Shown: piece after piece, positions 1,354 through 26,334 of the stretch
Numbering within the stretch: position 1 is the first letter of the stretch
Layout: each line of letters opens with the position of its first letter
Source: Saccoglossus kowalevskii
Taxonomy: Eukaryota > Hemichordata > Enteropneusta > Harrimaniidae
DNA: 28,455 bases
Assembly: GCF_000003605.2 (NCBI RefSeq)
Contig: NW_003144786.1
Location: forward strand, 798,416 to 826,870
Direction of reading: 5' to 3'
Notes under the pieces: model-generated
Seen by the model: only the letters and a program-made list of their open reading frames with translations
Databases searched by the model: none
What the model was told of the DNA's origin: nothing
Translations under genes and position numbers: made by a program

Positions 1354-1436
1354 TGACACAAGTTTCTCCAGATGTCGATTTTGGGAAAAAAACTCTCGAG
1401 GATAGGGATCGGCAATTCCGAAGGGAAGTTCTTATG
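1354..1436 (+). CDS. Left gene, first recognisable coding exon (LURAP/FAM89-like helix, N-terminal half)
   Basis: A small exon that ends at the donor ATG|GTAGGC (intron from 1437). Its reading frame is phase 0 at that donor and continues directly into the large open frame at 3155. The acceptor is ambiguous: TAG at 1351-1353 or the stronger pyrimidine-rich CAG at 1369-1371. I prefer 1354 because the translation then aligns with the start of the right gene. Positions 5-6 are Ser-Pro and 8-9 are Val-Asp in both, with a Lys at 13. With the 1354 acceptor the exon begins TG, so a preceding exon ending in A would create a split ATG. The exon encodes a charged helix rich in Lys, Arg, Glu and Asp that ends Arg-Glu-Val-Leu-Met before the intron. 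The splice sites and frame are seen directly. The start and the family assignment are inferred. Confidence 0.5.
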
Positions 1437-3154
1437 GTAGGCATTTTTAGCGGTTAATGACTAGTATGTTGCTGATACTAGTTGTTAGTTATATTAGCTA
1501 GCTGGACTCGTTGTGAATAGTTTGTTCATAATGATAAAATAACATGCTTAATAATAAAAGCTTGATTGATCGCACGATCTGTGGTATTTATATCTACGCA
1601 TTTTTGATAACATGATCGTCACCGTCACGTTTTGAACTTGTTGGATCCAGCCATGTCGCCATGGTGTCATTACGTGCACGTCACCATACTCTGAAAATAC
1701 AAATCAACACATATAATTGCAAGTCGCCTGGCACCTATCCTTGTTAGGTCATGAAAGGTCAACTTGTGGACATTCCTGCTACTTTGCTAACATTCTTCTT
1801 CTGCACGTGGAACCATTCCGTGATATGTGAATGTTCCCCCCTGTACCATTATGTATGTACACATGCTTTTGCAATTTAAGATGACAACTTCATAACTTAA
1901 CGTCCAGTTTTCATTGCCTCGCATTACCTACATTACAACATTTTCACATATATCCCCGATATAATGTGTTTAATGACGGATGTAAAATCGGTTTAACTAA
2001 CTCGATGGAGCCAGTCCGTGGATGTGATAAACGAGTATAAAAGACGACATTCATTTAATCGTTTGTACCTAGTAATGATCTTAAGTAGTTTACTAATCAA
2101 GAACTATGTTTCACGTAATTAAATTAAATTAACTGAAGTGAACATGCCAAAATTTTCTATTCGTATTTGAGTCCATACTAATGAGTACGTACAAACCGGA
2201 CTGTATTGGGGAGATGTGTGATATTATATCATAGATATGGCTACGACATTATCACGTGACCATACATATTACCGCGGTCTTAACTTCTTCTCTAAATCCA
2301 TTTACCCAATTCAGAATTATCCTCTTGGGATGTAAAAATTCACATTGTTATTAATAAAGCACACTTTTTTGGCACGTGGTATGTTTGTCCGAGTATGTCA
2401 GCAACTCCGCCATCTTGTTCGTTCTGTTAACCAACTACTAACAATGAACAGAAATAAATCACACAGAATATCACGAGTGTCAAACACCAACAAAAGGTCT
2501 GATATGTTTCACAATATCGACGAATTTGGACAAAATACAATATAAATGCAACTTGTGTCACAACTTTAGTGCGAAATAATTTAATTACTCTTCCTGGCAT
2601 CCATTTTATTACAAATTATTTGAAAATTGGAAACTTCTTCTTGTCTATCTTCAGAATATAAGAGAAAATTGAGAAGTAATTCTACATTAATCAAGGTCAC
2701 AAAGGTCACTGATATTTTTTGAAACCAGCTCATCGTGTGTGTCGTCAGTCTTGAAATTGGTACCAGTGTTGTTGTCAACGCAACGGGTAACCTTAGGTTG
2801 CCTGGCACGTTGGCACTTGTTGAGAGTTAATAGTTCGTTGTAATGTCAAAGATCACATCATACTTTACTGTATGTTGACAATTTAGCAGCAGACATACAT
2901 GTTCTGTTCACACAGACAACTATAAATTACAGTGAATCCTCGATTCTCAGAGTAAACAATTGCTTCTCACTCATCAAGGGGCCTAAAGTCTCACTGAATC
3001 CTGGACTCGGAGTTTTCGTGTGGCCCATTCCACGCTGCTAAAACAACAAACATTTTTCACAGTTACGCTCCATGCAATGATATTATTATGACAATATTGT
3101 GGTGAAGCAAAACAATAGTTTGTTCTCATTCTGTTTTTGTTTTTATTTTTGAAG
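1437..3154 (+). other. Intron of the left gene
   Basis: A phase-0 intron of about 1.7 kb, bounded by GTAGGC at 1437 and a long T-rich tract ending GAAG at 3151-3154. Reading frames inside it (2345-2545 on the + strand, 2581-2808 on the - strand) have no splice context and low coding character. I regard them as chance. The position of this intron matches that of the intron in the right gene. Confidence 0.5.
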
Positions 3155-6100
3155 GTTGGACTACGTGCCTCCGGTGACACCCTTTCTCGCCAAGTTGCAA
3201 CGATGTTCAGAACATTTAATGAAATGAAAGACTCTGGCGCCCTCAGCGACGTTAGTGACGTAGAATTTGAATACGAATCAGATGACGATAGTCAAACAAC
3301 CAACCCGAGTTCTGCGGGTTCATTAGACGATGATTTCGACTATATATCAGAAGACAGAAGCAGGGAACTCAGAAGAGCAAGTTGTCCTACAAATTCGTTA
3401 GATTCTGGTTACTATTCCCGGTCAGACTCTTCATACGGCCGACCAATGAGGCCCGGCAGTCTATATATATCTCCACCAATCAGCGGCGAGGAAGATAACT
3501 ACGATTCCAGTATTGACATCCGGAGTTCCAGCGAGGATGAATATGAACCTTCACATCATCATGGCAGGTGTGCTTGTTGTCCCCCCTCTCCAACTGAAAG
3601 TGTTGAAAGTGTCAAATCGTTTTGTTCATCCAGAAGTTCTTCCTCGTCATCGCTTTCCGAGAGCGATGACGAGACAGACGATACTAAGCGGGACAATTTC
3701 TTCAACTTCGCCGAAACCCACAGTAGTGGCGTCGCCGAGAAAGATAATAGCGAAAGCCATGGTGACGTGAGAGCGAAAAATGACAGTAAACAATTCGAAA
3801 GTGAAGAAGATGCGGCTTTATGGAGACGGCGACGACTGAGTCCTGTGTACGAAAACTCCCCTGGACACCACGAACCCAAGGGAGGGCCCTTTATACCAAC
3901 ACTGGTGTTTGAACGCAAGGGAGAAGAAGAGAAACGTATTAAAAACGATAAAGTACCATTAAGTCCTATTGTAGAAACGTCAATTGATGATGTACCTCCA
4001 TCACCGATGAGCCCCATACTAGAACGAAAAAGTTCGGAATCAGCTGATGATAGTCATGACGTCAGCGATACGACTGAAGATGAATCAGTAAAGACAGAAG
4101 TCGAAGTGGACGACATCTCCACAGATGAAATTGCTCCTGATGAAGAACCCGAGATCCAGAGATCAAAGAGTGTCCGCGAGCTGAAGGCTGCTTTTCAGGC
4201 AAAGAGTTTGACGGACACGCAGCAGAAAAGTGAACCCAAAGAAGAAAAAGTGAAAATAAAACAGAAAACTGAGAATGTAAAATCACCGGTGAAAATTCCG
4301 GACGTCGACAAAAAAAGTGACGAGCGAGAGGACAGTGAACAGTTATTGATCAGGCTGCCAGTCGCCGAACGCCGGAAAATATTTGACAATAAAATTAAAG
4401 AAAACACAGACAAAAATAATAAAAATAAATGCCCCATTCACCATCATCATCATCGTCACAACCACCAAAAATCAAGTCCGGTGGCCAAGAACCTAGTCGC
4501 TAATAAGTTTTTACAGAAACAACAGCATGTCAACTTAAAGGGGAAAATCGTCATTTCTGAAAAAGGTGTTGAAAATCGACTTGAAGAATCGCATGAACCG
4601 GACAGAAAACAACTTGCCACACAAGTTAGGGAGCTCAAGAGATGGTGGAAAGATAAACAAAATACAGATGAGAAATCATCAAATGAGAAAAATACCAGCA
4701 AATCGCTGCCACGTAAGATCAATAAAGTAGCGCCCTATTCGCTAATCGACAATGAAGGGTTGAATAACCCACCTCGAGAATCTGAAAAAAAAATCGACAT
4801 GAAACATTCCGAGGAAGTTCGAGATAAAAAAGAAGATTATGTACCTGTTGAAGCGGTTTATAGTAAAATTCACCACGACAGGCCAACGAGTGTACCACGA
4901 ACCGCCATTGTCGTACCATCGGCACAATCTGACGACGAACTACTGACTCCGTCTCGTGGCAGAGGGCGTAGTAGGAAGAAATACATAAACGACACAGAAC
5001 TTCAAAAGGAACATCTTTCCCCGTCAGAAAGATTCCTGAGATCATTATCAATGGATGAAGGTTTTCAACTTATGCATCCTGTGAGGGGCATGAAGAAACC
5101 TTCACGGACGACAATCACGTCCAAAATAAAACAAAGAAGAACCCCGGCGCCACAAATTGCTAACATCATCTCACCCGATATTGACATACCACGCGATACG
5201 GGTGTTCTCATGCAACCAGTTCGTAGTCAAGTCTATCGCCGTGAGCATAGTTGTCCGCCAGAAATGAGAATACACGATAATCGTCCGAAATTTTTACCAT
5301 TTCCAAGGCGATATGGAATAGGAAGACGGTGGAGCTTAACTCCAGAAGAATTGAAGCAGAAAGAGGAGGTGTCCCCCAAACGCCGTCACTGTGTTGGTAG
5401 CGATCCTTACGCGGAAACACACAGCGCCAAGGAATATCCACCTGCCCGCGTTTGCGAACCTCTCGCCCAGACTGAACAGTTGTCAGCATCTAAAGTAGTG
5501 CTGTCAGCAAAGACGAACAATGTACAAAATCTTTTCAAGGAATTACAACAGACAGAAAAGTCCACCGACGATGCTCCTTCACCTAAATCAGCGGTACCAA
5601 AAGGTGCAAAATATGGCGATTTTATGTTTGTTAAAGAAAATAGACTCAAGCAAATGCCGGATGGATCAACAAAAAGTTCAAAATGTCTCAAAATCGTGGT
5701 AAAAAGTGTTAAAAAGCTACCCACAAGTAATGATGAGAGTAAAGTCGAGTCTCGCGATGAAAATGCAAATATGCCACAGGGCAGAGACAAAGGCGAGACG
5801 TCTAAAACTGAGCGCGTTACAACTACGTTTAAAACACAGATCGGTAATGTAGACCATTCAGATAAAACTAAGCAGATACAATTACACGCCAGAACTACAC
5901 CACTGATAACCAGAGAGATACCGCTGACAACCGTGACAACCGGATACACACCATACATAACAACAGACATACCAATCGTAACTAGGAGTATACCAATACT
6001 AACTACAGATAATCCTGTGGTAACTAGACATATATCAACGAATAGCAGAGAAATACCGATAACGATCACACAATCACCGCGAGTAATGCAAGAAATCAAC

Positions 6101-6379
6101 GAAGATAACGCCGCGACTTTCAAAACCGAAATCGATACCGAAGAGGGCGGCAACGTTATCGTTATCAGACGCGTTAAGCATTTTCAGCCGAAGAAGTCAA
6201 CGAGTAGCGTGATGACAAACTTACGAATTGATGTGCCATCCAATACGGAGATAGGCAATCGTGAGTTTAAAATCCCGTTACAAATACAGCAATCGTCTTA
6301 CGGTGGACAGATGAATACGCAACGGTTACAAAGTGGACGAGTCAAAAGCACGTATAGGCATACCTTCGGCACTTCCTAA
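3155..6379 (+). CDS. Left gene, terminal exon: long disordered LURAP/FAM89-like adaptor protein
   Basis: An uninterrupted frame of 1,074 codons ending in TAA at 6377-6379, preceded by a good acceptor. With the upstream exon the protein is about 1,102 residues. If translation began instead at the first ATG inside this exon (3203) it would be 1,058. The first 25 residues complete an amphipathic helix (Gly-Leu-Arg, Gly-Asp, a hydrophobic series, Thr-Phe). It aligns without gaps with the right gene and resembles the leucine-repeat segment of vertebrate LURAP1 and FAM89. The rest is compositionally biased and probably disordered. It contains an acidic Asp/Ser patch, a Ser-Asp-Ser-Ser-Tyr stretch (also a FAM89-like trait), a poly-Ser run near 3637-3660, two VRELK motifs, a His-rich run near 4436-4460 and a 7-residue tandem repeat near the end. 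Vertebrate members are only about 180-240 residues, so the tail is unusual. The frame and composition are seen directly. An adaptor role on MRCK/actomyosin is family-based inference. Confidence 0.7.
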   Translation, partial: VGLRASGDTLSRQVATMFRTFNEMKDSGALSDVSDVEFEYESDDDSQTTNPSSAGSLDDDFDYISEDRSRELRRASCPTNSLDSGYYSRSDSSYGRPMRPGSLYISPPISGEEDNYDSSIDIRSSSEDEYEPSHHHGRCACCPPSPTESVESVKSFCSSRSSSSSSLSESDDETDDTKRDNFFNFAETHSSGVAEKDNSESHGDVRAKNDSKQFESEEDAALWRRRRLSPVYENSPGHHEPKGGPFIPTLVFERKGEEEKRIKNDKVPLSPIVETSIDDVPPSPMSPILERKSSESADDSHDVSDTTEDESVKTEVEVDDISTDEIAPDEEPEIQRSKSVRELKAAFQAKSLTDTQQKSEPKEEKVKIKQKTENVKSPVKIPDVDKKSDEREDSEQLLIRLPVAERRKIFDNKIKENTDKNNKNKCPIHHHHHRHNHQKSSPVAKNLVANKFLQKQQHVNLKGKIVISEKGVENRLEESHEPDRKQLATQVRELKRWWKDKQNTDEKSSNEKNTSKSLPRKINKVAPYSLIDNEGLNNPPRESEKKIDMKHSEEVRDKKEDYVPVEAVYSKIHHDRPTSVPRTAIVVPSAQSDDELLTPSRGRGRSRKKYINDTELQKEHLSPSERFLRSLSMDEGFQLMHPVRGMKKPSRTTITSKIKQRRTPAPQIANIISPDIDIPRDTGVLMQPVRSQVYRREHSCPPEMRIHDNRPKFLPFPRRYGIGRRWSLTPEELKQKEEVSPKRRHCVGSDPYAETHSAKEYPPARVCEPLAQTEQLSASKVVLSAKTNNVQNLFKELQQTEKSTDDAPSPKSAVPKGAKYGDFMFVKENRLKQMPDGSTKSSKCLKIVVKSVKKLPTSNDESKVESRDENANMPQGRDKGETSKTERVTTTFKTQIGNVDHSDKTKQIQLHARTTPLITREIPLTTVTTGYTPYITTDIPIVTRSIPILTTDNPVVTRHISTNSREIPITITQSPRVMQEINEDNAATFKTEIDTEEGGNVIVIRRVKHFQPKKSTSSVMTNLRIDVPSNTEIGNREFKIPLQIQQSSYGGQMNTQRLQSGRVKSTYRHTFGTS
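4172..4657 (+). other. Twin VRELK motifs within the left protein
   Basis: Two copies of an 11-residue motif starting Val-Arg-Glu-Leu-Lys and ending in Lys lie at 4172-4204 (VRELKAAFQAK) and 4625-4657 (VRELKRWWKDK). Between them, near 4360-4400, is a related basic/aromatic stretch, PVAERRKIFDNK. The order basic-acidic-Leu-Lys, then aromatic residues, then Lys suggests short helical linear motifs in an otherwise disordered chain. I do not recognise a named motif. Confidence 0.5.
5900..6097 (+). repeat. Seven-residue tandem peptide repeat in the left protein
   Basis: About nine units of a degenerate heptapeptide, Pro - aliphatic - aliphatic - Thr - (Arg/Thr) - (Glu/Asp/Ser) - Ile. Examples are PLITREI, PYITTDI, PIVTRSI, PILTTDN and PVVTRHI. 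One unit carries a 3-residue insertion, and the later units decay. The DNA of the units is too diverged to be a fresh microsatellite, so the amino-acid pattern appears older than the DNA repeat. The alternation of aliphatic and polar residues could form short beta strands. No known repeat family is recognised. Confidence 0.75.
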
Positions 6380-7111
6380 TGTGACCCAGAAAAAGTGACT
6401 ATCTAGCTAAGGGCTGAATGGGAGTTTATTTCATTTACACGACGTGGTTTAGGGCAGTTTTCCCGACTTATTGTTTTTATATAGTGTCATAGACATTTTT
6501 TGTTCTGAATTGAAGCAGGTCTTCAATCCTTGTCTGGACTATAAGAATTTGAAACGAAAGTGCTCCCCCTGGCGATCGTTCCAAGTCAGTTGACACTGAG
6601 CAAGTGATGTATACGAATACGATATGGAAAGGGAAAAAAAATGTGAAAGAAACACTTATTTGTAGAATCGTAAACAACTTTTCCATCATTATATAATGTA
6701 GTTACAAATCTCCAGTGTTTTGAGTTATAATGCACCTTACTTAATACAAAATGAGCTTAAACATAGGGGTTATGATAATGAATAATTAATTATCTCAGTA
6801 ATTATTGAAATATTTTATATAAGCATGAATGGGGTAACTGTTCATTACGCTGGTCTATTGTTATTTCAGCTTGCCATGCGATTGGATGCGTATTCTGCTT
6901 TGTTGTATTGAAACTAAGTGCTCTGAACAGCGCTTTTGTACATTGTATATTAAATCGCAGCAGTCGTTGCGCCGCGTCATCTTAAACATGACGTCTACAA
7001 CGCGTGTAAAATATTTGAACGCACTGCGTGACAAATGGGACGCTTGGACATTACAAACAATTGACGACCAGCATCGCTAGACTGTTTATCTTAATTACAT
7101 AATATAATAAA
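6380..7111 (+). other. Probable 3' untranslated region of the left gene with polyadenylation signal
   Basis: There is no coding frame after the stop. The first canonical AATAAA on the + strand lies at 7106-7111, about 730 bases downstream of the stop. A diverged TTAA-flanked mobile element (6950-7082) would lie inside this UTR just ahead of the signal. The signal is seen directly; its use is inferred. Confidence 0.4.
6950..7082 (+). mobile_element. Diverged copy of a TTAA-flanked miniature transposon
   Basis: The left end is TTAA at 6950-6953, followed by a GCAGCAGTCGTTGCGCCGC-like terminus. The interior carries the motif ACAACGCGTGTAAAATA (7000s), which is also found in the two full 133-bp copies at 12649 and 24633. 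The right end (GACGACCAGCATCGCT) matches their terminal motif but has lost the second TTAA. The small reading frame across it (6871-7080) is a by-product of the repeat. Confidence 0.6.
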
Positions 7112-7699
7112 TGTTAATCATATTTATTTGAAAATATTGCCACCACGCACCATTTTACTAATTGCCTGTATATTTACTTGTACTCTCGTTTATATTGCAT
7201 TACAAACCAACCCACGTAGATGGCGCCCTACAGACTAGACTAGAAAGATTTGCCAGAGTGTTGAGTTTATTCACTTACTAAATTGTTTTAAATTGATATA
7301 ATTACTTATTAACGTAAATTTCGTATCTCTAGGTATTGCGGCTACATTTTCTGTAATTTGCATAAATTTTTCATAAACTTTGTGCAATATCTTTCCGTAA
7401 ATAATTGTATAAGAATAACATTCGTGTTCAGTAGTTCATTGTTTTTTTATTTCATTGGGGCAGACCATTTGATGTTTGAACTCTGCCCACGTATATGCAC
7501 AATTCTATTATTCAAGCTCTAGTACACTCCTTTTACACGCTGTTCATGGGCGTAAGTTGTTGAAAATTTTAAACTTAATTTACCTCTCTTAGATCCGATT
7601 TGCAAGTCTTTATTTACCTTAAACAAGAAACAAAAACAAACGGTCAGCCCCTTTTTCAAAACTCGAGTACACAGACGAGATTGATTTTGTTGGTGCATG

Positions 7700-7770
7700 T
7701 TATTACGCCCTCAAAGACGGACTCGCTCGGACACATGCAGCATGCGAATCCGTCGACGAGGGCGCGATAA
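7700..7770. repeat. Imperfect inverted repeat (hairpin)
   Basis: The arms at 7700-7726 and 7744-7770 match at about 21 of 27 positions, including GCCCTC/GAGGGC and GACGGA/TCCGTC blocks, around a 17-base loop. It is more GC-rich than its surroundings. It may be a decayed terminal-inverted-repeat element or a structured RNA. Confidence 0.6.
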
Positions 7771-7819
7771 CTGACACTCATTGACTGTAATAGCTTGTTG
7801 TGACGTATCAGTTTACAGT

Positions 7820-7830
7820 TGACGTCACGT
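7820..7830. promoter_or_regulatory. Overlapping CRE palindrome and E-box
   Basis: TGACGTCA (7820-7827) overlaps CACGTG (7825-7830). These are consensus sites for CREB/ATF bZIP factors and USF/MITF-type bHLH factors respectively. The sequence match is exact. Function is not shown, and the nearest gene end is more than 1 kb away. Confidence 0.25.
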
Positions 7831-8844
7831 GATTAATGTACGTGTTCCTTGATATCCATATTCAATCATTATCTATGCATGTATTTAAGGATTTACGAAA
7901 TAAAGCTTTTTTGTATTTGTTTTCACCGCAAACTTGATGTTTGTATTATTTTTACAAATATCAAATGCTTTAACGAACTCTAAGAGTGTTACATTTGCAG
8001 ATGGTAGTTAAACAATATTCGTACATGATTTGAAGTATCAACATTTATATTTTTTATTAAAGCCTTGCCATGCAAGCAGTTTAATGGATACTTTTAATGC
8101 TGCCAATGACTTTAACAATGCACAACAGGCAGTAAATACAGTAACGGATTTAATCTCTAATAACTAGTAAAAACCTATAGAAAACACACAAATAGGAAAA
8201 TAAATAAAAAAATACCCCCAAAATATACAATAGTGTTACACTAGTGAATCTCAAAAAAGAAGTTCAAATTATCTCGTAATCCATGCAATAAAGAGTTCGG
8301 AATAGAATTTACAATTTAAATCGAAAATATTTACACATTGTAAAAAAAAGAGAAGAAACTATAAGAAAGTCTCGCTGGCCAAGCTATATACAATCAGCAT
8401 TTCATATCCTGGTGAGAATTTGAACTGATAAATATATTGGAAGAAAGTCAAAACAATAATGACAATAAAAATCTGCTAATCAAAAGTGACAAGAACACTT
8501 AAAAAACCTAAAAAAGAACGGATCAGATACATTGGGAAAGAATTAGAAAAAAAAACAATTGCTAGACTAGACCATAATATTTCTCAACTAGACATTCATC
8601 CCCGCTATCAATAATTAAAAAACATAAGAAATCCCCTGTTGTAGACGAGACAACAATTACTGGGTTGTAATAAAATTTAGGTCGCCTGGAGATCAAGGAT
8701 ATATTATAGAAAACAGTCACACTAATAATAATAACATGACTACCGAGGAATTAAAAAGTCATTTGAAATCGATAGTAAATAAAAATCTATAATGGTAAAA
8801 ATAAAGGGGTCAGCCATATAAACTAATTGCGCACATACAACATG

Positions 8845-9154
8845 TTAAAGGGAAAGTCAATGCTAACAACATTATACTCCCAGATAAAAGAGCTTAGCAA
8901 ATGTAAGAACAGGCAATTTACAGTTTTTTTATACCACTTTTTATTCTCTAGATATTCAACTTTTTATCAATTTATGTAGTCTGCCATCTTGATTCTTCAG
9001 CAAAGGATTATGGGCAGAGTATGATATCATATAATTTGTTGTCAGAAATTGAGAATGAAAATTGATATAGAAAAACTGTAAATTACATTCTCCTACATTT
9101 GTGGAGCTTTTTCTCGAGGGGTCATTATGTTGTTTGGCTTGATGTTTCCTTTAA
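8845..9154. mobile_element. 310-bp fold-back element flanked by TTAA
   Basis: Bounded by TTAA at 8845-8848 and 9151-9154. The two halves are inverted copies of each other over roughly 100 bp. The outer ends pair (AGGGAAAGTCAATGC against AGGAAACATCAAGCC, then AACAACAT in both). An inner block (AAATGTA...AATTTACAGTTTTT) is repeated inverted near 8895-8935 and 9065-9105. The centre also pairs (TCTGCC near 8980 with GGGCAGA near 9013). It has no coding capacity. It fits a non-autonomous element of a TTAA-targeting superfamily such as piggyBac or Sola3; the superfamily is inferred only from the target site. Confidence 0.7.
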
Positions 9155-9693
9155 TAACAAATATTTCACCTGCCTATAATATAACATACAAACCACAGGT
9201 CAGCTTTAACAAAATTAAGTGCCCATATTCTACAAATTGAAGTGGTGCGCTACAAACATCGAGATGTGTGTATTATAAAGTGTACAGTGTGCAAAGTGAA
9301 GCTGACTGATGAACACTACGAAAATGAAAGAAATCAATTATTTAAAGAGACAAATATAAGATTGATATCACTACAGTTTAAAAAAATCATGATAGCAATA
9401 TTGAATAATACCGACAGTGTAAAAGTAAAAACATACCCGTTTCAACATAAGAGAATCATTACAATTATTAAAAAATTACCAAAAATAAGAAAAAATATTC
9501 TGCATGATTATTTATTATTTCGTACAGCGTACTTTATTGAACTTTTCAAGTCAACACCATACGATAACAATAAAGTTATTGTTAAGCATTCCAGTATAAT
9601 AGCAAGTATGAGTAGTCTGGTTACCACGGTGTTTCGTGTTTGTACAGTGAGTGTATTTCTGTATAATTATGAATAACTAAATAAATAAAATAA
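9155..9693. other. Intergenic with one AT-rich open frame of unknown status
   Basis: A 144-codon frame at 9242-9676 (+) opens with GTG rather than ATG. Its translation is rich in Ile, Lys, Asn and Tyr, as chance frames in AT-rich DNA are. It has no recognised domain and no clear splice or promoter context. It carries a CxxC pair near its start, which is not enough to support a gene. Confidence 0.3.
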
Positions 9694-10125
9694 CTACCTT
9701 ACTTACCCTGCCTCTTCCCACTGTACCCTGCCTATTCTCATCTTCTTCCCACCCCATGCCTCTTCCTTGTGGCCTCTTCCCATCGTACCCTGCTTCTTAC
9801 CACCATACCATTCTCTCCACCCATCCCACCCTGTCTCTTCCACCACACCCCCCTTTTCCCCACCTACTCTACCTTTTCTTACCATACCTTTTCTATTCCC
9901 ACCATACTCTGCCTCTCCCCACTGTACCCCACATTTTCCCATCTTACCATGCCTCTTGCAATTGTACCCTGCCTCTTTCCATTCCTGTCTTCCCACAACA
10001 CCCGGCTGCTCCATACCGCACTCTGTCGTCTCTCACCGCATTTTACCACTAATCATATCCTGCCTTTTTCCATCGTATCCTGTCCTCTTTCCGCCATACC
10101 TGTCTCTCAATTGACACCTATCTGC
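9694..10125. repeat. Pyrimidine-rich degenerate minisatellite
   Basis: About 430 bases of C/T-rich sequence built from a roughly 20-bp degenerate unit resembling TACCCTGCCTCTTCCCAYCG. Strand asymmetry is near complete. Overlapping open frames in three phases here are artefacts of the low stop-codon content. Confidence 0.75.
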
Positions 10126-11105
10126 TTCTTCTTGGCGACGTGACCTCACCATGTTTTTTTTAAACACAGAATAGAGAGAAATGCAGTTTTTATATTGTGG
10201 AGGTTTTTTTCACTCTTTTGTTTTCCGCCTTTGTACACCGGCCAAGTGATTGACTGTGTGAATAGGCAATTAGCCACCGTGTTGCAGCTGGTGATATTAC
10301 TGGCCATAACTTCTCACTGCAAACTGCAAAGCAGCTGGCCTGAACGTTTTAGTGTGTTGCTGAGTTATTTTAAGCAGTGAAGTCGTAAAGCAGGTGAGGT
10401 CCTGGCCACTGAGTGGTTAGAGACTAATTTGAATAAATTAAATTATCAAATGAATCAAAGAGTTGTTTCGGACCACGCCCTCGCAACACTCGCCTGTTCT
10501 GTGGTGTATTTGTTGCGCGTGCGATTTACATATACAATGTACGTACAAGTAAGAATAACATGCACTCTAGTGTTTTCTTTAATTCCAAAAAAAAAAAAAC
10601 GTTCCAAAATACTGTTTTTTTTTATAAAGATGTACAAAATTTATAATTCCGAATTGTTTTTGGGAATGCTAAATACAATATTTTCGTTCCAGAAAAACAC
10701 AGCTTTAGGCAAGAAACTATTTATACCCATGTAATTTATTTTATCCCAATTGTCATAAATTTTATGCAAAATGGGTTTTTATTTTTGATGATTTACATTG
10801 TCAAGCAACTAATTTGGCGAAAGCAAGTTCCAATAATAGATAAAGTAATATTTATCAACAAAATCAAGCGCAAAATTGTGTCTGTAAACATGTGTTTATT
10901 AACGCATATGTTTAGCTGTGTGTGTCCCACGTAGGAATGATATCCAATGTATGGTGGAAAAATGGAGACAAATAGGCTTAGGCGTTATAAATGTGCCGTC
11001 GCAAAAAAATAAAAAAAATGAAAACAGGTACATAATATGTTCAGCGTATGTTGTCCGAGCCATTTTAACAGCAAAATCGACACCAACGACTAGGTGTAGG
11101 CTTGG
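10126..11105. other. Intergenic, possible regulatory island, no gene supported
   Basis: Contains a more GC-balanced island at about 10231-10345 with two CAGCTG E-boxes (10285-10290 and 10332-10337) and homeodomain-like ATTA cores. This is followed by AT-rich sequence with an A12-13 run near 10587. The short frames here have no splice context that joins them to a gene. Confidence 0.35.
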
Positions 11106-11270
11106 TTAAAGCGGGGGAGTCGTCACCTGCGTATGCGTCAGATGGACATAGCGTGTCATTGTTTACAAACAAGCGTCTACCCATAAGTCTTTGCGTTTTT
11201 AGTGTGTGTTGTTATCGTTGCTTGGGACTCAACTCCAGCGCGTGCGCAGGCGACGACCCTCGCGCTTTAA
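11106..11270. mobile_element. 165-bp TTAA-flanked miniature transposon (second type)
   Basis: TTAA at 11106-11109 and 11267-11270 enclose imperfect terminal inverted repeats of about 32 bp. The left end reads TTAAAGCGGGGGAGTCGTC and the right end, inverted, TTAAAGCGCGAGGGTCGTC, both continuing into CCTGCG. The interior is unlike the 133-bp copies, but the termini share the GTCGTC-C core with them, so the two types could be mobilised by the same transposase. The 60-codon frame inside it is not a gene. Confidence 0.7.
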
Positions 11271-11670
11271 CTCTTTTTAAGTAACCGTTGTTTAGACATT
11301 AACAGAATATTTTCGTTTCAGTAAAAAACACCTGTATATTGCATCTCTTGATCTGTTAACACCTGTGTTTTAAAATAATCCCATCGGAACTGAAACTGTC
11401 GCAAATTACGTGATTCATGAGTCATCGAATAGTTTATATGTTCAAATTGGTCAGAGATGCTCTGTTAGCTTCGGAGCACAGTCTCATTCGACATTTATAA
11501 TACTCTGGCGACATATGATGGTCATTGCAGAAACGCGCCATCTTGAGACGGAACGCGTGAGACGTTAACACAAGCACTGGCAGATCAAGTCAATTCATGG
11601 TCAAATCCATTCATGATCAAATAAACAAGAACACTTCTCGTAAAGCCATGATTGATTCATGGAATGACCC
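11271..11670. other. Intergenic, nothing recognised
   Basis: No coding frame, RNA gene or strong repeat was found before the 31-bp array. Confidence 0.4.
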
Positions 11671-11794
11671 ATGTCACACTGGTCTCTGGTTTGTCACATA
11701 CATGTCACACTGGTCCCAAGCTCAACGTATAAATGTCACACTGGGCCCATGCTCGTCGAAAACATGTCACACTGGTCCCTAGGTTTGTCGCATA
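11671..11794. repeat. 31-bp tandem repeat, four copies
   Basis: The anchor ATGTCACACTGG recurs at 11671, 11702, 11733 and 11764, an exact 31-base spacing. The second half of the unit is more variable. Because 31 is not a multiple of three, successive units shift frame, so the array is not a peptide repeat even though two open frames cross it. Confidence 0.85.
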
Positions 11795-12648
11795 CACCAC
11801 GGTTACCGTGCATATACGTTGCCAACAAAAATAGATTATGTCTACATCTTGGTCTTTGAACATTATTTACACATCTGTCATTGTGATAAATGTCGGCGGA
11901 CCGCCGCACAGTCTCAAAATGAGTAATTCCCTCGTTTAGGGCGGACCGTAGTAAATTTCAATCGCTGAATTTCTATGTATCGCTATGAATCTGTTCGTCA
12001 AAATATGCGCGCTACCAAAAAGGGACACATGCTAAATATTTGTTTTATAATAGACCCCGATCTCTGTCCACAGGGATAATGCAAAATTAACAACCAATCA
12101 CGTGCCATCAATTTTGGATGCCAGTTGGAGCAGACATCATTGGTTTAACCACAGTCCCTCTAGAGGGATAGAGGGACTGTGGTTTAACCGAGCAAAACTG
12201 ACTTAAAGAATTAGACTGCACTTATGACCTAACTTGCTATTGAAGTACATCTTCCACAAAAATGTCATAAAATTGTAATTTGTTATTTGTTATGGGTACT
12301 AAACTGCGTACAATTCTGTGAAACCGAGGATCACTCGACCTCAGTTCCTATCAAAGACAATTTGAGACTGATCCCGAGATTCCCTATCTAAATAATCATG
12401 GTAGAACTGTGACATAAAAATGACTTCGCTGGGCGCCTGTCATGATAATTCAAAACATCGACACCGCTCAACAATTTGCGGATTAACAAACTTGCTTACA
12501 ATGTCGATTGTTTTGTCGAACTTTAACAAAAATGCAGAAATTAAGAAAAAGGCAGTGACAAATAGTCTTTTATTTTCAAACAAAAATTCTTGTAAGCAGG
12601 ACTAGGCTTCGAGCTAAACCCATCTAAATCGCATTTTGTTCAATAAAT
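11795..12648. other. Intergenic, hairpin only
   Basis: No supported gene. It contains the CACAGTCCCTC hairpin listed separately. A 61-codon frame at 12420-12605 lacks splice or promoter context. Confidence 0.4.
12141..12189. repeat. Hairpin CCACAGTCCCTC/GAGGGACTGTGG within 10-bp direct repeats
   Basis: A perfect 12-bp stem at 12149-12160 and 12171-12182 around a 10-base loop. The whole is bracketed by direct repeats TGGTTTAACC at 12141-12150 and 12180-12189. A related hairpin occurs at 25817-25846. The arrangement resembles a tiny inserted palindrome with a target duplication. Confidence 0.7.
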
Positions 12649-12781
12649 TTAAAGGGCGGCAGCCGTCGCGCCGCTTCCTGTTCGATATGGGACTCATAGC
12701 GACGTATACAACGCGTGTAAAATACATTGTTTATTTACATGAAATTCGAACACGCGCTGCGCGACGACCATCGCGCTTTAA
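12649..12781 (+). mobile_element. 133-bp TTAA-flanked miniature transposon, copy 1
   Basis: TTAA at 12649-12652 and 12778-12781 enclose imperfect terminal repeats of about 23 bp (AAGGGCGGCAGCCGTCGCGC against AAGCGCGATGGTCGTCGCGC). It is the same length as the inverted copy at 24633-24765 and differs from it at about 6 of 133 positions, all near the ends; the central 95 or so bases are identical. The 63-codon frame that crosses it is a product of the repeat. Confidence 0.8.
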
Positions 12782-13779
12782 CACAATGTTGAAAACTGTA
12801 CTAATATATTCATGGGATTACTACTAAAACTCCGGGATAGTCGTAAATTACTAGTCTATGAGTGTGTGTTCACACAGCTGCGGCATATTTAGACACACGT
12901 ACATATTTAGTACGTAACCATGACGATAGTACGTGAATTAATGTTGCATATATGAAACCAAAGCATCGCCTGTAATACAGGTTTACAAATGACCAGTTCT
13001 ATGTCTCAATTTCCATAGTAACGAGTTCGAGTCATTATTTTACATTATCCATTGTATGAGATACAAAATTGTGTTTGGCGCCCTCATCAACTCGTCATAT
13101 TTTCTTCCGGAATCAGAAAGAATCGTGCATTTGATTTGAATCAATATAAAATAATTAAATGTAGAGAGGAGTCTAAATAATAGTGTCTCGAACTGACGAA
13201 ATAATGCAAGTTTGTGTATGTGTCTTCACTAACAATACAGAGTTAATAGTGTTGGAAAGAAAGGACGAAGTGACCCGGGACTGACCCGAAATACTCCGAC
13301 GAACATAAACACTTTCCTCAGTTCGGCATGATTTATTGCCGACTTGCAGAGACATATGACCCGAGTACTCTTCGTCATCTGTCAGTATTGTCTCATTACT
13401 AAGCATATGGGTGATGTGACATTTCGGTCAAAAGTTTATAAACAAGTGTCTGTAGCATAAAAATATACTTATAATAGTACCATTTAAATCTAACATCGAG
13501 TCAGTCTCCACCCCTCTGGTGCCGCTATTTCGTCTGTCCAGAAATGTGCATAGTGTTACTTTACTTTAAATACCGAAATCTCAAAAAAAATGCACATAAT
13601 TTCCCCATGCTCTTAGAAAATTTCAAAATTTTCTTTTGCACTCGAGAAATAGAATTCTTTTCTTGTCCTCAACAAATCTTCTCGGAAAAGCTCTATTGAC
13701 TGCACCTGTTGATATCACGATACACCACAACTCGTCGCTAAGCTCTCTGATGCCAATGTCATGAAAATACACATTGATA
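12782..13779. other. Intergenic with weak exon-like frames on the minus strand
   Basis: A 77-codon - strand frame at 13173-13406 is hydrophilic and contains an Arg-Ser-Ile-Ser-Gly-Gln stretch. It resembles one in another - strand frame at 13948-14131. A further short protein-like frame is readable on the - strand at about 13620-13775. No splice pairs consistent with all three were found, so I do not call a gene. Confidence 0.25.
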
Positions 13780-13947
13780 TAGACTTGCATACAGTCTCTT
13801 GTGTTTTTGTGTGTGTATGTTTTTCAATAAATTAAAACATGGGAGTGTATAAATGGCGAAAGTCGGGTTTATTGCGCGGTAACCCGGCTTTCGCCATTTA
13901 CACATTCCTATATTTTAATTTATTGAAAAAAAATGTATGCAAGTCTA
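13780..13947. mobile_element. 168-bp fold-back element flanked by TA
   Basis: The ends GACTTGCATAC (13782-13792) and its inverse (13935-13945) are flanked by TA. After a 24-base stretch present only on the left, the arms continue to pair through TTTTTCAATAAATTAAAA and TAAATGGCGAAAG to a short centre near 13870. The whole element can fold into one long hairpin. The TA flank suggests a Tc1/mariner-type target site. No transposase is encoded. Confidence 0.75.
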
Positions 13948-14131
13948 ACATTTCTACAATACCGGATACACCCATACTGTGCACATCGTTGTTTACTTCT
14001 AACTGTCCTGACATAGAGCGTATAAACTTTAGTCTCTCATTGCCATGTGAAACATACGTCACGCGGGCAATAAATCTCTGTGAGACCCCATCTTCATTTA
14101 TAACACCTTCATTGTCTTCTGGTGCATACAC
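13948..14131 (-). other. Exon-like open frame, unresolved
   Basis: On the minus strand this encodes a hydrophilic segment with an Arg-Ser-Met-Ser-Gly-Gln stretch. It opens at an upstream stop near 14170 and runs into the fold-back element at its 3' side. It could be a decayed exon interrupted by that element or a chance frame. No confident splice sites were found. Confidence 0.2.
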
Positions 14132-17124
14132 AGACCAGTATACTCGGAGAATACGTCTTATAATTGATCATTGGCCAATGTGTTGCCTTTCTTGAAATCT
14201 GGAGACAACCCTGACAGCAACAATGATATCCTATTCACGTAAGACTGTAAATTCTCATTTAGAGTTTGGGATATATCTACTATTTATTGTTGACGCAGAT
14301 TGATACGTAGAATGTTAATTGCAGTCTCCCAGATAGCTGACATACATGTGCAATGTGATTTCCATATTCTAGTCATTGGACTGGGAAGCCATAACATATA
14401 TTATTGCTATTAAAACAACACATATAAAACATCAGACTCACCATAAACTATAACCAGCATAATGGGTATCACGGGTCACACATATATAGATATCATATGC
14501 AAATGAATCACTATTAAACTCGTTTTAAATTCGCTTACAATTACCCACTAAAATGCGAGGCAGAAATGTTATTCGGGCAAAATTGACACTTAGAGCAAAT
14601 AACGAATAATTAAAACTGTTTTTTTAACTGTTTTGCTAATGGTATAATCTCCCTCTAGTCTCGTAAACTGTGTTGTATATAGAATTGTCATGTGACTCCT
14701 TGCCAAACAAGTTTCCAATGATAAATAAAGTTATCATTTATTCATAGGTCTGATGCCGCCGTCGGCGCCATGTACATCGTATACAATATACGATGTATAC
14801 TGTTCATAGGTTATAAACAAGCTTTCCAGTTCACCAACCTTAGACAAGTGTGGCCTATTTTATGAATGGTTGTCTAAAACCGCGTAAAATGGCACAATAC
14901 GATGCAAAACAGTAGTTTTTTATTTATTTATCGCACTTCTTCAAGCGCAATCAACAGCTTGTGTTGGTGCTGTCTGAAGTGTCGGATACATCATATACAT
15001 GTTTTCCGGATCCCTAGGGAGGACGTCGCTTCTATAATTCCCCAGAGTTCGTCGCTTCCTTCTTAATCGTTTCTTTTATATAGAGGAGAGTGATATATTC
15101 ATGTGAGGTCCACGAAGTCAGTCATGCTACAATGAAACACGCCCGTTAATTTCTACAAATCTTACAATACAATCAAACACAACACAACACAAGATTTATT
15201 ATCGTTGTTGTCGAAACGTAGAAACACGATAACTTGTAGAGTCGCCTTTAATGTGCGGATGAAAGAAAGCACGTCAACTTCAGAGAAATATTGACGCTAA
15301 ATTGTGAAATAAATTCGCGATGGATCATACGTACGTCAACGCCCGGAATGCCAACTCACCATAACACACCATAAACGCAGATGTCTTGCGCTTTAAGTCC
15401 ATCTGAACGCCACCGCTTTCCCGCCAAAAGTAAGGTGCAAAATTTTGCATTTTTTATATCTTCCCATTGGCTACAGATGAAATATGCGTATTTTTTTTGC
15501 AAAAAATCTATTGAGAAAACGGATAAATTATTTTGCAATACTGTCATTAAAGCATCAATAGTGCATAATAACCATGAAAGACTATTGGAACCAGCAAAAT
15601 AAATAAATATTAGTCGGAGTTGCATTTCCACTTTGTTTTATATGCAGAACATCAGTTGCTATGGCAACAAATCCTGAAATATTGTAGCAATAAAGCTAAA
15701 TTCTAAATTCGACTTCAGGATTCTGTTTGTTGAGATTTCTCATGAACTGAACAAAATTCAAAGTCCCTATAATGTTTACAGGGGGCCAGTGAGTGTTTTT
15801 TCTACAGATAATAAAAAGTGATAATGCAATTTTAAATCTGCCGATTTCCATTTTTTGCTGAACTAAGTTACTAGTAAAAGTCGTGACATATAAACAACAC
15901 TTACAGGCCGCAATGGAACTTTGTTTTGTAAAAGCTATAAATACAACTATGTTTTCCACGTACTTCCATCGCCAGTCAGTTAACTGCAACATTCAGGTCT
16001 TGTAGCGGCGTGATAGAAGAAAACTGATAAATTTACAAACACAGCGGGGAAATGGATCAATAGATTTCATATACATGTACTGGTCTGTACTGAGTAATGT
16101 CGATGTAATGTTTAGACTGGCCTAGCTGATGGCATACCACGCGGCCGCCGAAGAAATCGACTCCTTTCCCGTAAACATTCATATATACATGTTCAGCGAA
16201 TTAAGTGTTTTAGCGGGTGATACATTCGAAAGGGTTACATTTGTGTGATGGTTGACTAGGTATAGGAAATGAACAGCGATGACAGACACAACGTCAATAT
16301 ATGTACGCCTTGGGTGATATATATCATATGGATGGATAGTTTTCACTAGAAAGTTTTATAGAGACTGAGTATATATTTAAACTGGACTACTTTAGTAGAG
16401 ATCCATGTGTGAGATTTCAGCCATGCGATATTTACGAGTCGTATCAGGTTTTTATTTAGAGGAAAAGCAGCGTGAAATACGGCGTGCCCTCACGTCAGAA
16501 TTCTGTACCTTATGGGTGACAGCGTGATCGTGTACACTTCGTCGAATATTACGATCAATTCACACAACACTAATTCCCACGGCCATTATGATGCAACATG
16601 CAAAACGTGATCAAACGAAATATCCTTTAAGTTTCTCCAGATTGGACCCCTGACCCAAACGCACTTATACATACATGATAGAAATACTTCTGTAATTGGT
16701 CTACTCTGGCCCCCTGACCCGCGACCAAATTATATTGACCATGATAAAATTGTAGAAGAGTTAGGGATAATAACGCTAATATTATTCAAAGAGTTGAGGG
16801 GTCCAAACGGTTACTGAAACATCTCAGAAGATTTTGTGACCTATTTGAACTTGTAATATTATAGGAACGTTATAATGCGATACGCAAGTACCCTGTAGTT
16901 AACTATATAAATATATACTGTATTCATACAGAAATATCTCAAACATACGTTCTGGCGTAGAAAAAAAACACATTCCATTTTAAGCGTGTATTAAATATCT
17001 AGATATAATCGTCGCTTCATATAGAAATAAAATACAATGAGATGAAATTCTGATCTGGTAGAAATATCAATTACATGGAGTCACGGTGCAAAAACTGAAT
17101 AAAAAAATAATATCACTGTTCAGT
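14132..17124. other. Intergenic, no gene supported
   Basis: Nearly 3 kb of AT-rich sequence. Short frames on both strands near 15356-15992 lack coding character or splice context. A perfect 11-bp palindrome lies at 14773-14797. A TATATAGAGGAG stretch near 15079 looks like a TATA element but has no gene attached. Two CCCCTGACCC motifs lie near 16647 and 16710. Confidence 0.4.
14773..14797. repeat. Perfect 11-bp palindrome with 3-base loop
   Basis: TACATCGTATA (14773-14783), loop CAA, then TATACGATGTA (14787-14797). It could extrude as a cruciform or bind a dimeric factor. No related copy was noticed. Confidence 0.7.
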
Positions 17125-17197
17125 TTTATTGAAAATGGCACGTCCTCCTGATATAAAATGGCAATAAATTAAATTTATATTTTATTTTCGTTTAAAT
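17125..17197 (-). other. 3' untranslated region and polyadenylation signals of the right gene
   Basis: Minus-strand AATAAA hexamers lie at 17181-17186, only about 12 bases past the stop, and at 17125-17130, about 70 bases past it. The second has more usual spacing. The hexamers are seen directly; their use is inferred. Confidence 0.45.
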
Positions 17198-19082
17198 TTA
17201 ACAATATGTTGATTGCAATTGCTCCCGACTGCTTTCGCGGCGTCTATTGACATGGTTCGATTTATCCAGCACTGTGAAACCGCTGAAAGATCGCCGCTTG
17301 CCAACGTTATTGGGGCTTTGCCATGCGGCTTTGAAACCTGCGTAGCGAATTGCACACAGTCTCAGTGTTTCTTTGTCATTACTTTTTCGTCTTGTTTTGT
17401 CATGCGCATGTAACATTCCGTTTGCTTTCTCTGCTTTATTCGCATTAGAAGAAGGAATCGAGCATTGCTCTTTCGTGGGGAAGTATATTTTACTGGGGAG
17501 TACGGGACCATGATAAGTTCGTAATCGTGGGCGTTTTTCCTCAAAATATGAGTGATCGTGTTGCTCTTTTGCTAACTCTCTGTCTAAGTCAAAATCTTGA
17601 GCACCTAAATCCCACGTCGTCCTTCTATTGGCCCAATTCGAGCCGATCCCGAGCTCAGTCCGATTGTCGCCGACTCTCAAGTCTAGATCGCCGTCACCAG
17701 GTGAACTTTCGACTCTTGTGTTTCTGTGATATCGCAGGTCATTAAATTTTACTGGCATACCATCGGTTTTAGGTATAACATTTTCAGTAAAATTCGTGTC
17801 CATGTCACTAAGTATGAGAGGTTGTCTATTTCCGGCTACGTTCGTAATACTGTGGCGTCTATAATTATAATGTTGTGTAATATCTGGATGGATATGCGCC
17901 CCTTGTGTCGACGTATTGCTACTATTTGGTAACGATACTGTGGAGCTAACTCGCGGAATTCTTTCCGAAAACGCCCTCATTAACGTTCGTTTATTGTCGT
18001 CGTCGAATTCTTTGTCAGTTGCTCTAACATTTCCCACAATTCCGTCGTCTTGTTTCTTTTTCCTGATATCACTTAAAGTTCCGTTAGTTATGATCCTTTT
18101 ATTTGTAGTCCTACTTGCGTTTTCGTTATTATTTTTATCAATATGTTTGCCACCCGGTCGTTCAAACGGTCGCATATTTGGAACAGCAGAGTTATGTTTA
18201 CAGGTACAAACGATATCGACGTTGTTTTGATTACAACTGCTCTGAGTGGAAGTTAGGTGACTGAGAGAATTTGACGACCTATTTGACATTCCATTATATG
18301 AATCCTTGCACGTGATCTTTCCGGTGTTGTTCTCACAACTGTGGTGTGCGCCACGTGACCATAGCGGCGTTGTGTTGGTTTCCCAGTTATTGGTTGTTGT
18401 TTTGTTATAGTTGTTGCTATGCTCACTACCTATTTTCTTATTGGAGGGCACGTGATAATGTCCGGCGCTATTTGGTACGACTTTTTGGTCCTCGATTCGA
18501 TACATTTGTGGTGACTTTTAGTTTGCGGCTCAGATTTGTCGTTATTAGACCACGTGAGTTCCTCGGCTTCCCAGTCGTAAGGTAAAGTCGCCACCTCATC
18601 GTCATCGCTAAAACTACCCCAATCATACTGTATTGTGTCAGAGTCTCTATCAGGTATATCCTTTTCGCCTGTCATTTCGTAATGTTTTCCAGTTAACTGG
18701 AAATGTCCGTATTTTATCCATTCCTCTGTCAGTCCGTTTCTGGTATTTTTATTCTGGGGTGTGTATTCGTTTTCGTCATCGTCTTCGTCGTCAAGTTCAT
18801 ACCAAGCACGTGGGGGCACATATTTATCGTTTTCCCCATTACCGTCGTTAAGGAAGTTGCCATGGGATGGCTCTCTCTGTGACAGATACTTGGTGTTATT
18901 ACATTCCTCGCCTCCATCCTCCGTCGCCGTAGCAACCCGCTATCTCCGTCCTCCATGCTTTCTTCGCTTATCTTTTCGTTGGAAAACAAAAACGTCGATC
19001 TTTCGTAAAGGACATCTTCAAAAGTTTGATATAAATTCCACATCGTTTCGGATACTTGATCTCCTTGACAACGAAGTGCTTT
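17198..19082 (-). CDS. Right gene, terminal exon: LURAP/FAM89-like adaptor, with two apparent frame breaks
   Basis: The exon starts after a good acceptor (pyrimidine tract then TTACAG at 19083-19088) and ends in TAA at 17198-17200. The first 40 or so residues complete the leucine-repeat helix (KALRCQGD, then Trp-Asn-Leu-Tyr and Thr-Phe-Glu-Asp). A Tyr-Glu-Arg-Ser-Thr-Phe follows, recalling the region after the helix in vertebrate LURAP1. After that come acidic patches, two Tyr-Asp-Trp segments and an Asn/Ser/Arg-rich tail ending Ser-Thr-Tyr-Cys. The frame changes twice, each time as if one base were absent: near 18900-18940 (a GGG run at 18936-18938) and within 18430-18517 (an A5 run at 18482-18486). 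The 1,885 bases plus two make exactly 629 codons. The breaks could be homopolymer sequence errors or real decay. The tail is far longer than in vertebrate relatives. Confidence 0.65.
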
Positions 19083-20502
19083 CTGTAAGTGTAAATAAGT
19101 GAGAGTAATTACCATAAATTGTTGCATATGCTACATACCGTTGTCATTGGATGTTCCCACCCCTGCCATTTTTGCCGCGGCCGTGAACACAGTGATCGAG
19201 TACTCATTAATTTTAGATGTATCCATGTACTTTTAAATAACATTGGCCAAAATAAATAATGTGGACACAGCAAGACACTGCTACTAATTGCCAAATAACT
19301 AACACAGTCCATTTACACCAGAAACCTTATATGAGAGTGTAACTTTATTATTTTCAAGTCAAATATAATCACTGATAATAAAGAATATGAGTTCAGTAAC
19401 ATTTCATTTCCCATGTGCGAACCGCTCAACAACGGAGGTCACGAACAAATCCACAGTCAATATAAAGATTATTAAATGCAATTCCACGACAATGTCGGTA
19501 TTGTTAAAACGGCCATGGCACATCCCGGTGACAAAGCTTTGAATGCCGACATGGTATCACATTGACAAACAATTACTGGCATATTTGATTGAATATGTCT
19601 AATTGGCGTTACAAGCAAAAAACATATATTCGCCTCAAGGGTGGACCAATTGAACTCTCCGGGGGGCTAGCTTTGGAAGATGGAAAGAAAGAGGTAAACC
19701 TATTTTTTGCGCTTACTATATGATTTCTGTTTTTAAAGTTAACAATTATATTCACGTCTATCATTGTGGCAAGCTTTTCTGGGTGAACAGTTTGAACATT
19801 TTCCGTGGAATCTGCCCCTCCCTGATTCTAAATGGCCCACCCCTGAAAGCCGGCTGGGACAGTTTTGCGAAATGAATTCTGTAATCCAATATGATATGTT
19901 GAGCTGGTGGCCATCTTGGGTGAAAATTCATATTCAAGTTAGTGTGATGGAGTTCAGTGGTTCCACGTATATTTGATATGTTTGTTTTTAAGACTGCTTT
20001 GACCGTTACTATACAATTAAAACACTCGATATGGCTATGTCCACATGTAGGTCCCAAGACCCCAACCAACATCAGTAGTCAAGATTGAATGACTTCTCCG
20101 TGGGAGGCACTTAATTATTTCTGAGTGTCAGTTAGAGCTAACAGGTTTTTACCAAGATGGCGGAATATGGTCAACTTCACACTGTTGTTTGCTATTTCAT
20201 CATAAAAAAAAACGCACTTGAAAAAAAAATCCAATTTTAGAAATATAATATTGATAATACATTCGGGTCACCGCCTGCACGAATCCCTGCTTGTTCAACT
20301 TGAATGCAACTGAAGTATTTCAAACAGTACCAACCAACGTACCATTCTAGTACATAAGCCGAGGACTTTTAAGTACCACTACGTACCACACAATACGAGG
20401 GTTTGTTTACAAGAACAGAGAACGAATATGACAAATGTAACCAGAACCAGCTCACTAAATGTTGACTGTTCGCACGCAACAATGGCTTACAAATGTACTT
20501 AC
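19083..20502 (-). other. Intron of the right gene
   Basis: A phase-0 intron of about 1.4 kb with donor GTAAGTAC at 20502-20495 and acceptor TTACAG ending at 19083, both strong. It interrupts the protein two residues before Leu-Arg, the same place as the left gene's intron. The interior, including short frames at 19761-20072, shows nothing recognisable. A YY1-like AAGATGGCGG occurs near 20155. Confidence 0.65.
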
Positions 20503-20610
20503 AATATCCTGCTTCAATGTTGCTAGGAGAGAATCCATTCTTGAACTAAATTTCGCCACCTTAGCTCCATCTTTCGTCCTGGAATCCACACCCGGTGAGT
20601 TCATGTCCAT
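20503..20610 (-). CDS. Right gene, start exon (LURAP/FAM89-like helix, N-terminal half)
   Basis: The exon runs from an acceptor (pyrimidine tract then TTTTAG at 20617-20622) to a strong donor GTAAGT at 20502. It opens TGAAAG then ATG at 20610-20608. Other frames are blocked by stops, so this ATG is the start and the first six bases are 5' UTR. It encodes 36 residues ending MDSLLATLKQDI. This has the heptad spacing of the leucine-repeat adaptor family: the pattern continues across the intron with Leu-Arg, Asp and Trp-x-Leu-Tyr. Vertebrate FAM89B/LRAP25 and LURAP1/LRAP35a use this segment within adaptors that link MRCK kinase to LIMK1 or MYO18A. The exon boundaries are seen directly. Family membership rests on my reading of the pattern. 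Confidence 0.7.
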
Positions 20611-20616
20611 CTTTCA

Positions 20617-23600: not shown

Positions 23601-24632
23601 AGTATTTTCACATAGAGGTTCAAGTTGTTCACACTTTTAAACAGAAATAAATATACACATACTTTTTTTTTTATAAGTCGTTTTATAAAATTATTTGTCT
23701 CCAAACCACATCTTGATGAATGTGGCCTTTTACAATAAATTTGTTTTTTGCCAGATAAATGGGCCAATCGATTGATCCTTACCATATGGTGACCTTGATT
23801 TGGATAATTAATATTAAATATCGCTTGACATTCTATCCACTCCCACGAATTGAAAGTGCCTTTCTCTTTCCTGTTTCAGGGGGTGGGGGATAATAGTTCC
23901 GCTATAGTTTCGAACGATAAAGGTTCCCCATGATGAAAAACAATTTGCGCTGACTTGCAAAATTTAGCTCACCGTATTTTTCTCATTATTTATCCGACCT
24001 GGATTAAATACCACTGCAACCGATTGGCAGTTGTATCACTGACTTGATTGTCGACTACATATTGACGTCAGATTTATTTCTGCAGGGTCACTAAAGGTCA
24101 CAAGATCAATGTTGTCATATCACCGGGACACTCATAATTTGTTTACCGGGCGCACAGAGAATGCATGGAATGCTGTGGCCCGATATTGTTCATTATTTGA
24201 CACTTCAGTGTGGAATGACAAAGAAATTACAGATATGATATGAATACATATTTGTACATGCTCCAGATGTTCGGAGACGCAACTATCTATTTAAATTTTT
24301 CACACAAATCCATTCACCCCATATGGTGCACGCATTAAACTTAATATCGCTTATTATATATCCTATTTATCGTCCCCAACAACTTATATAGATTTACTAA
24401 CTTTAATTGAAATTTATATTCCCCCTCTGCGTATGATTTTTAAAACATTTGGTAAATAAAATAAAATTACCGAATGTCACAACGAAATCTAATTCTTATA
24501 CAATTATTTCAACGTATTCAATTCACTTGAAAGAATTGTTTTTTGGTATTAATAGTAAATTGTTAAACATTTCTTTAGTTTTGCGTGACATTAAAAGTAT
24601 TTTTAATTTCGTAAATAGTGGAAATTGTTATG
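20617..24632. other. Upstream region of the right gene; untranslated exons possible
   Basis: The start exon has an acceptor, so at least one 5' UTR exon lies upstream on the minus strand. Two - strand donors are candidates: CAACAG|GTAAGA at 21612 and AATC|GTAAGTAAG at about 24840. TATAAAAAG on the + strand at 21050-21058 is TATA-like without an evident gene. The many short frames of 60-150 codons here lack coding character. Confidence 0.3.
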
Positions 24633-24765
24633 TTAAAGCGCGGTGGTCGTCGCGCAGCGCGTGTTCGAATTTCATGTAAATAAACAATGTATTTTACACG
24701 CGTTGTATACGTCGCTATGAGTCCCATATCGAACAGGACGCGGCACGACGACTGCCGCATTTTAA
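24633..24765 (-). mobile_element. 133-bp TTAA-flanked miniature transposon, copy 2
   Basis: An inverted copy of the element at 12649-12781 with TTAA at 24633-24636 and 24762-24765. About 127 of 133 positions agree. The conserved peptide that appears in both copies' open frames reflects DNA identity, not a gene. Confidence 0.8.
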
Positions 24766-26254: not shown

Positions 26255-26260
26255 GTCTCT

Positions 26261-26311
<51 letters not shown>

Positions 26312-26328
26312 GAGCCCACCCAGGGACG
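26255..26328 (+). tRNA. tRNA-Asn (anticodon GTT)
   Basis: A 74-base cloverleaf folds cleanly. The acceptor GTCTCTG pairs with CAGGGAC (one G-U). The D arm is GCGC/GCGC, the anticodon stem TTCGG/CCGAA has loop CTGTTAA (anticodon GTT), and the T stem GGTGG/CCACC has loop TTCGAGC. The discriminator base is G. There is no intron and no encoded CCA, as usual for eukaryotic nuclear tRNA genes. The internal A and B boxes (TGGCGCAATCGG and GGTTCGAGC) are intact, and a T4 pol III terminator lies at 26335-26338. It supplies asparagine for AAC/AAU codons. Confidence 0.96.
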
Positions 26329-26334
26329 GTGTAG

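Follow-up and report, generated by a model that had tools for sequence, protein, structure and literature searches.

The question raised by this locus is how two coding regions that face each other tail to tail, each with a leucine-repeat helix split by an intron, relate to one another and to the LURAP/FAM89 adaptors, a small protein family that couples kinases to the contractile cytoskeleton. The window, that is, the whole stretch of 28,455 nucleotides of Saccoglossus kowalevskii DNA that was analysed (C3574:798416-826870), belongs to an assembly of 572 Mb in 4830 contigs. The parts of the papers that we draw on describe LURAP/FAM89 adaptors from vertebrate cells and embryos (PMC5677176, PMC9954052, PMC8699034): the leucine repeats of LURAP1 bind MRCK and its PDZ ligand binds MYO18A/Dishevelled, the C-terminal class I PDZ ligand of zebrafish LURAP1 being T-F-L (PMC5677176, PMC8699034), and LRAP25 (FAM89) links MRCK to LIMK1 (PMC9954052). 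Sequence comparison makes it fairly probable that two convergent, diverged paralogues of the LURAP/FAM89 adaptor type lie in the window, coiled-coil genes set tail to tail whose tails are long and mutually unrelated. Both tails are probably disordered. The features are collected in Table 1.

Table 1. Features of the convergent gene pair (positions in the window; slashes in the text mark exon-intron or exon-exon boundaries)
Feature	Position	Strand	Description
Segment previously taken as left exon	1372..1436	+	GTAGGC, a weak donor; heptad poorly kept; codon use coding-like
Left gene, terminal exon	3155..6379	+	begins V-G-L-R, second half of leucine repeat; ends ...HTFGTS; one open frame, 1074 residues; position includes the stop
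Gap between both stop codons	6380..17197	.	10.8 kb
Right gene, terminal coding stretch	17198..19082	-	begins K-A-L-R; ends ...EQLQSTYC; three frames
Right gene, exon 1	20503..20610	-	MDMNSPGVDSRTKDGAKVAKFSSRMDSLLATLKQDI; first half of leucine repeat; donor GTAAGT

The similarity between both genes is concentrated where the intron cuts the helix, which reads ...LKILREEL/VGLRASGD... on the left and ...LATLKQDI/KALRCQGD... on the right. As the preliminary description had stated, the two peptides match without gaps and share L, R, G, D, S, T and F, which makes 7/21 identities. Over the 26 residues after the intron the BLOSUM62 score is 35, a value reached by 0/10,000 full shuffles and, when the hydrophobic pattern is kept, by 0/10,000 shuffles in one run and a fraction of 0.0003 in a second; blastp gives E 7e-5 as a single comparison. 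Single-sequence AlphaFold2 predicts a helix over residues 5-27 of the left exon 2 (mean pLDDT 64.1) and over residues 2-36 of the right one (mean pLDDT 73.6). The likeness does not extend to the tails, for which the best blastp match, that of the left tail to the final piece of the right one, has an E-value of 0.20. The claimed phase-0 intron two residues before Leu-Arg is borne out by both acceptors, located at 3154/3155 on the left (TTTTTGAAG/GTT) and at 19083/19082 on the right (TTACACTTACAG/AAA), and by the right donor after 20503, but not by the left donor that had been placed at 1436. Likewise, the single huge terminal exon attributed to both genes holds for the left one and breaks down on the right, where three frames are used.

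The first exon of the left gene had been placed at 1354-1436. This assignment does not stand, since the donor (ATG/GTAGGC) is non-consensus, the exon end falls off the heptad and a better exon ends at C3574:789994. Indeed, the end of the 1354-1436 exon scores -6 against LURAP and -13 against the right gene, with a heptad core of QRMLGLVMFM; read from a splice-like AG at 1370-1371, the exon is 65 nt long and offers no join to a phase-0 exon. When the 9.9 kb upstream of the window and the first 3.15 kb of the window itself were searched for exon ends in phase 0 that keep the LURAP heptad, three candidates came up, one of which has a GTAAGT donor. This candidate exon (...KIDLSLKILREEL/GTAAGT) lies 8.4 kb outside the window and leaves an intron of 11,575 nt up to position 3155. 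Given 22 matches in 572 Mb for the exon-1 signature described below, the chance of meeting one on the correct strand of the left intron is about 2e-4, yet it is present, in an exon that was itself chosen through the heptad filter. With this donor, the phase-0 intron two residues before L-R is found in both window genes and appears as a family trait in this genome. As to the start of the left protein, the codons of 1354-1436 are coding-like (0.20 per codon; values above 0.2 occur in 0.4% of 260 intergenic open windows) and, for the exon at C3574:789994, the 19 codons from its sole in-frame ATG are not (-0.05 per codon) but its entire open frame is (0.14 per codon). At best, 1372..1436 would be an alternative 5' exon rather than a LURAP-type exon 1. 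The first 113 residues of the left terminal exon are encoded at a single place in the genome.

Kinship with the LURAP/FAM89 leucine-repeat segment was examined against the canonical LURAP gene of the same genome, which is carried by contig C1647 and is the sole Pfam LURAP match in the genome family search (PF14854, exons joined, 43.7 bits, E 2.9e-11). Its exon 1 ends ...DGKLRKLKADI/GTAAGT and its exon 2 begins MALREMDVKL...; the intron between them is phase 0 and falls two residues ahead of L-R, at the same site as in the window genes. Its exon 2 had no match among solved structures at E up to 1. The match of both N-termini to a LURAP profile, which the preliminary description had led one to expect, did not appear: seven protein entries of varied lengths and joins gave no Pfam LURAP match at E up to 10, and both window genes, scanned with and without exon 1, stay under the curated 25 bits for PF14854, that is, outside formal membership.

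A DNA signature of the exon-1 end exposed one further, low-scoring relative that was missing from the Pfam genome search. Scanned over the whole genome, this signature has 22 matches in 572 Mb (11 per strand), against 18 for a reversed control pattern; they include LURAP, one exon of each window gene (on the right C3574:818913-818941, codon score 0.18, with an in-frame TGA six bases ahead of the ATG) and a locus on contig C298, and 6/22 form one tandem array (C2726). At the 11 forward-strand loci the upstream peptides were read, the downstream acceptor filter being so strict that even LURAP and C298 were lost, and the reverse-strand matches, except the right gene, were judged on the matched letters alone. 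Of three loci whose flanks were examined, C298 yielded an exon 2, one of two candidates that passed the filter in 30 kb, and the flanks of C1215 and C3527 gave no convincing one. The C298 gene (L030:1231-1491, C298:62730) is a fourth, LURAP-like gene, reading ...KIRINGKLEQLRSDL/TSLQNQDQSLLRQLLHIHEMIGQL... across an intron of ~1.1 kb. Its joined exons reach E 7e-4 against Pfam LURAP with 20 bits, under the curated 25, and this E-value is somewhat flattered as the exon was picked via the signature; exon 2 alone has no LURAP match.

Aligned across the intron, the helix reads ...LRKLKADI/MALREMDV... in LURAP and ...LEQLRSDL/TSLQNQDQ... in C298, and all four genes, LURAP, C298 and the two of the window, have their phase-0 intron at the identical site in this one genome. 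Each window gene has a five-heptad helix, split after the first heptads, in the register of the canonical LURAP. The ten heptad core positions are LLILDLLIIL (LURAP), LLLLDLLIIL (C298), LLLLGLVMFM (left) and LLILGVMLFV (right); in all four the a/d repeat is regular with one break, where an Asp or a Gly stands seven residues into exon 2, so that 9/10 core positions of the window genes are hydrophobic and the break stands where LURAP has it. This pattern, break included, arises in at most 1/20,000 shuffles of each sequence. Furthermore, hhalign of left plus right against LURAP plus C298 gives a probability of 67.7 and E 4.9e-5 for this single pair. The exon-2 starts compare more loosely: LURAP against left has 4/21 identities and a score of 11 (P 0.0016 with full shuffles, 0.026 with the hydrophobic pattern kept), and LURAP against right has 3/21 and a score of 6 (P 0.0098 and 0.138). 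The kinship proposed for the window genes is thus supported by intron site, core break and hhalign but not by a Pfam match; what carries it is register, core break and intron site taken together, over one short helix. Finally, since both window genes have G-D, S and T-F, which are absent from LURAP and C298, it is probable that one derives from the other or that both descend from a single enlarged ancestor.

The likeness of the two window genes could be fortuitous, two unrelated coiled-coil genes having come to lie tail to tail; the matching segment is indeed short and the tails do not align, but the score of 35 that no full shuffle reached and the identical intron site make such a coincidence highly improbable. 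A heptad pattern is common to any two coiled coils, and the helix of FAM167 resembles that of LURAP, so the window genes might also be mutual paralogues from another short coiled-coil family, FAM167 for instance or an unnamed one, with a generic likeness to LURAP and a fortuitous intron. Neither gene matches Pfam LURAP, and once the hydrophobic pattern is kept the 36-residue comparisons with LURAP are weakly above chance (P 0.05 for left, 0.011 for right), which favours such an origin. Against it, the phase-0 intron site and the core break are alike in LURAP, C298, left and right, and the window proteins have no FAM167 match in the Pfam scans. A genome profile search with FAM167 (PF11652) speaks neither for nor against it, being silent in the genome and in all 14 controls alike. 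We regard this origin as rather improbable, and diverged LURAP/FAM89-type paralogues as the better reading.

The state of the right gene calls for another weighing. Instead of the single terminal exon of a 660-residue protein that had been described, its last exon of ~630 codons passes through three frames, from 19082 to ~18900, from ~18900 to ~18500 and from ~18500 to 17198, with coding-like codon use shifting frame near 18900 and 18500. The two shifts share one direction, which is what a loss of bases would produce, and no normal-sized intron fits. Assembly indels and real decay account for these breaks equally well. The right gene could accordingly be a pseudogene, a once giant adaptor now carrying two frameshifts, as the coding-like signal crosses three frames, which no intron of normal size accounts for, and the stretch has one copy in the genome. 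However, every piece is open over hundreds of bases, the splice sites are intact, and the two shifts are alike in kind, as single bases missing from the assembly would be; we hold decay of the gene to be less likely than not, though more likely than either of the foregoing alternatives.

Between the two genes, the open-frame listing and Pfam reveal no convincing gene. This gap contains a 163-residue open frame (9185-9676) whose top Pfam match has an E-value of only 0.065, and an inverted repeat of 50 nt with an 11-nt spacer and 90% complementarity (13820-13930). A 138-nt element occurs twice in the window, at 12649-12786 and 24628-24765, in opposite orientation, 95% complementary and 11.8 kb apart; it looks like a dispersed, MITE-like repeat, and letters akin to it were seen by eye at ~6960-7030 as well as on the 3' side of the C298 gene. 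Beyond the right gene lie a tandem array with a unit of 185 nt in 2.2 copies (24919-25323), further tandem arrays at 26839-26927 and 28204-28314, and a tRNA-Asn (GTT) gene predicted by ARAGORN (26254-26329).

Compared with known systems, the window genes share with LURAP1/LRAP35a (PF14854) the N-terminal leucine-repeat helix, the heptad register and the core break, together with the phase-0 intron as seen in the LURAP gene of this genome. They differ from it in the break itself (D in LURAP, G-D in the window genes), in lacking a Pfam match and in the last exon, which in the LURAP of this genome comprises 175 residues and ends in TDL, a class I PDZ ligand, whereas those of the window genes run to 1074 and ~630 codons and end in GTS and TYC, with no standard class I PDZ ligand at either C-terminus. 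The C298 gene resembles them in intron site and heptad and departs from them in its short exon 2 (86 residues long up to its stop codon, further exons being possible), their own last exons being long. FAM89/LRAP25, which we take to belong to the Pfam family of LURAP and presumably resembles the left window gene at VGLR, is a small protein, unlike the products of the window genes. The role proposed below for the window genes is akin to its own as a leucine-repeat MRCK adaptor that recruits LIMK1 (PMC9954052). No invertebrate or giant LURAP/FAM89 gene is named in the titles and abstract openings of the open-licence papers that the literature searches listed.

Both window tails are rich in Ser and charged residues by composition. 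Motif candidates tried in them were set aside. The second motif of LURAP and C298, R-S-L-S, is not above shuffles in the giant tails (P 0.52, 0.38 and 0.56). For basophilic R-R-x-S sites the left tail has 3 where 0.68 would be expected (P 0.029) and the right tail 3 where 0.35 would be (P 0.005), post hoc and with several motifs tried, and the looser [RK][RK]x[ST] shows no enrichment (P 0.40 left, 0.06 right).

By analogy with the known adaptors, the helix of each window gene may dimerise or bind a partner helix, such as that of an MRCK-type kinase, and docking and phosphorylation would take place on the long Ser- and charge-rich tail, in place of the short tail of LURAP with its C-terminal PDZ ligand. 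The window genes would then encode putative cortical actomyosin scaffolds whose tails have a different set of partners. We consider it possible, if somewhat short of probable, that the LURAP-type adaptors of this lineage spawned an enlarged subfamily, a tail-to-tail pair whose kinase-binding helix is joined across a conserved intron with long and independent disordered tails in place of the PDZ ligand, one actomyosin-kinase adaptor having given two multi-site scaffolds. If true, LURAP/FAM89 adaptors would be an older animal family whose intron flags distant members that profile searches miss, and the giant forms would let one test whether the helix alone fixes the kinase partner and the tail sets the location.
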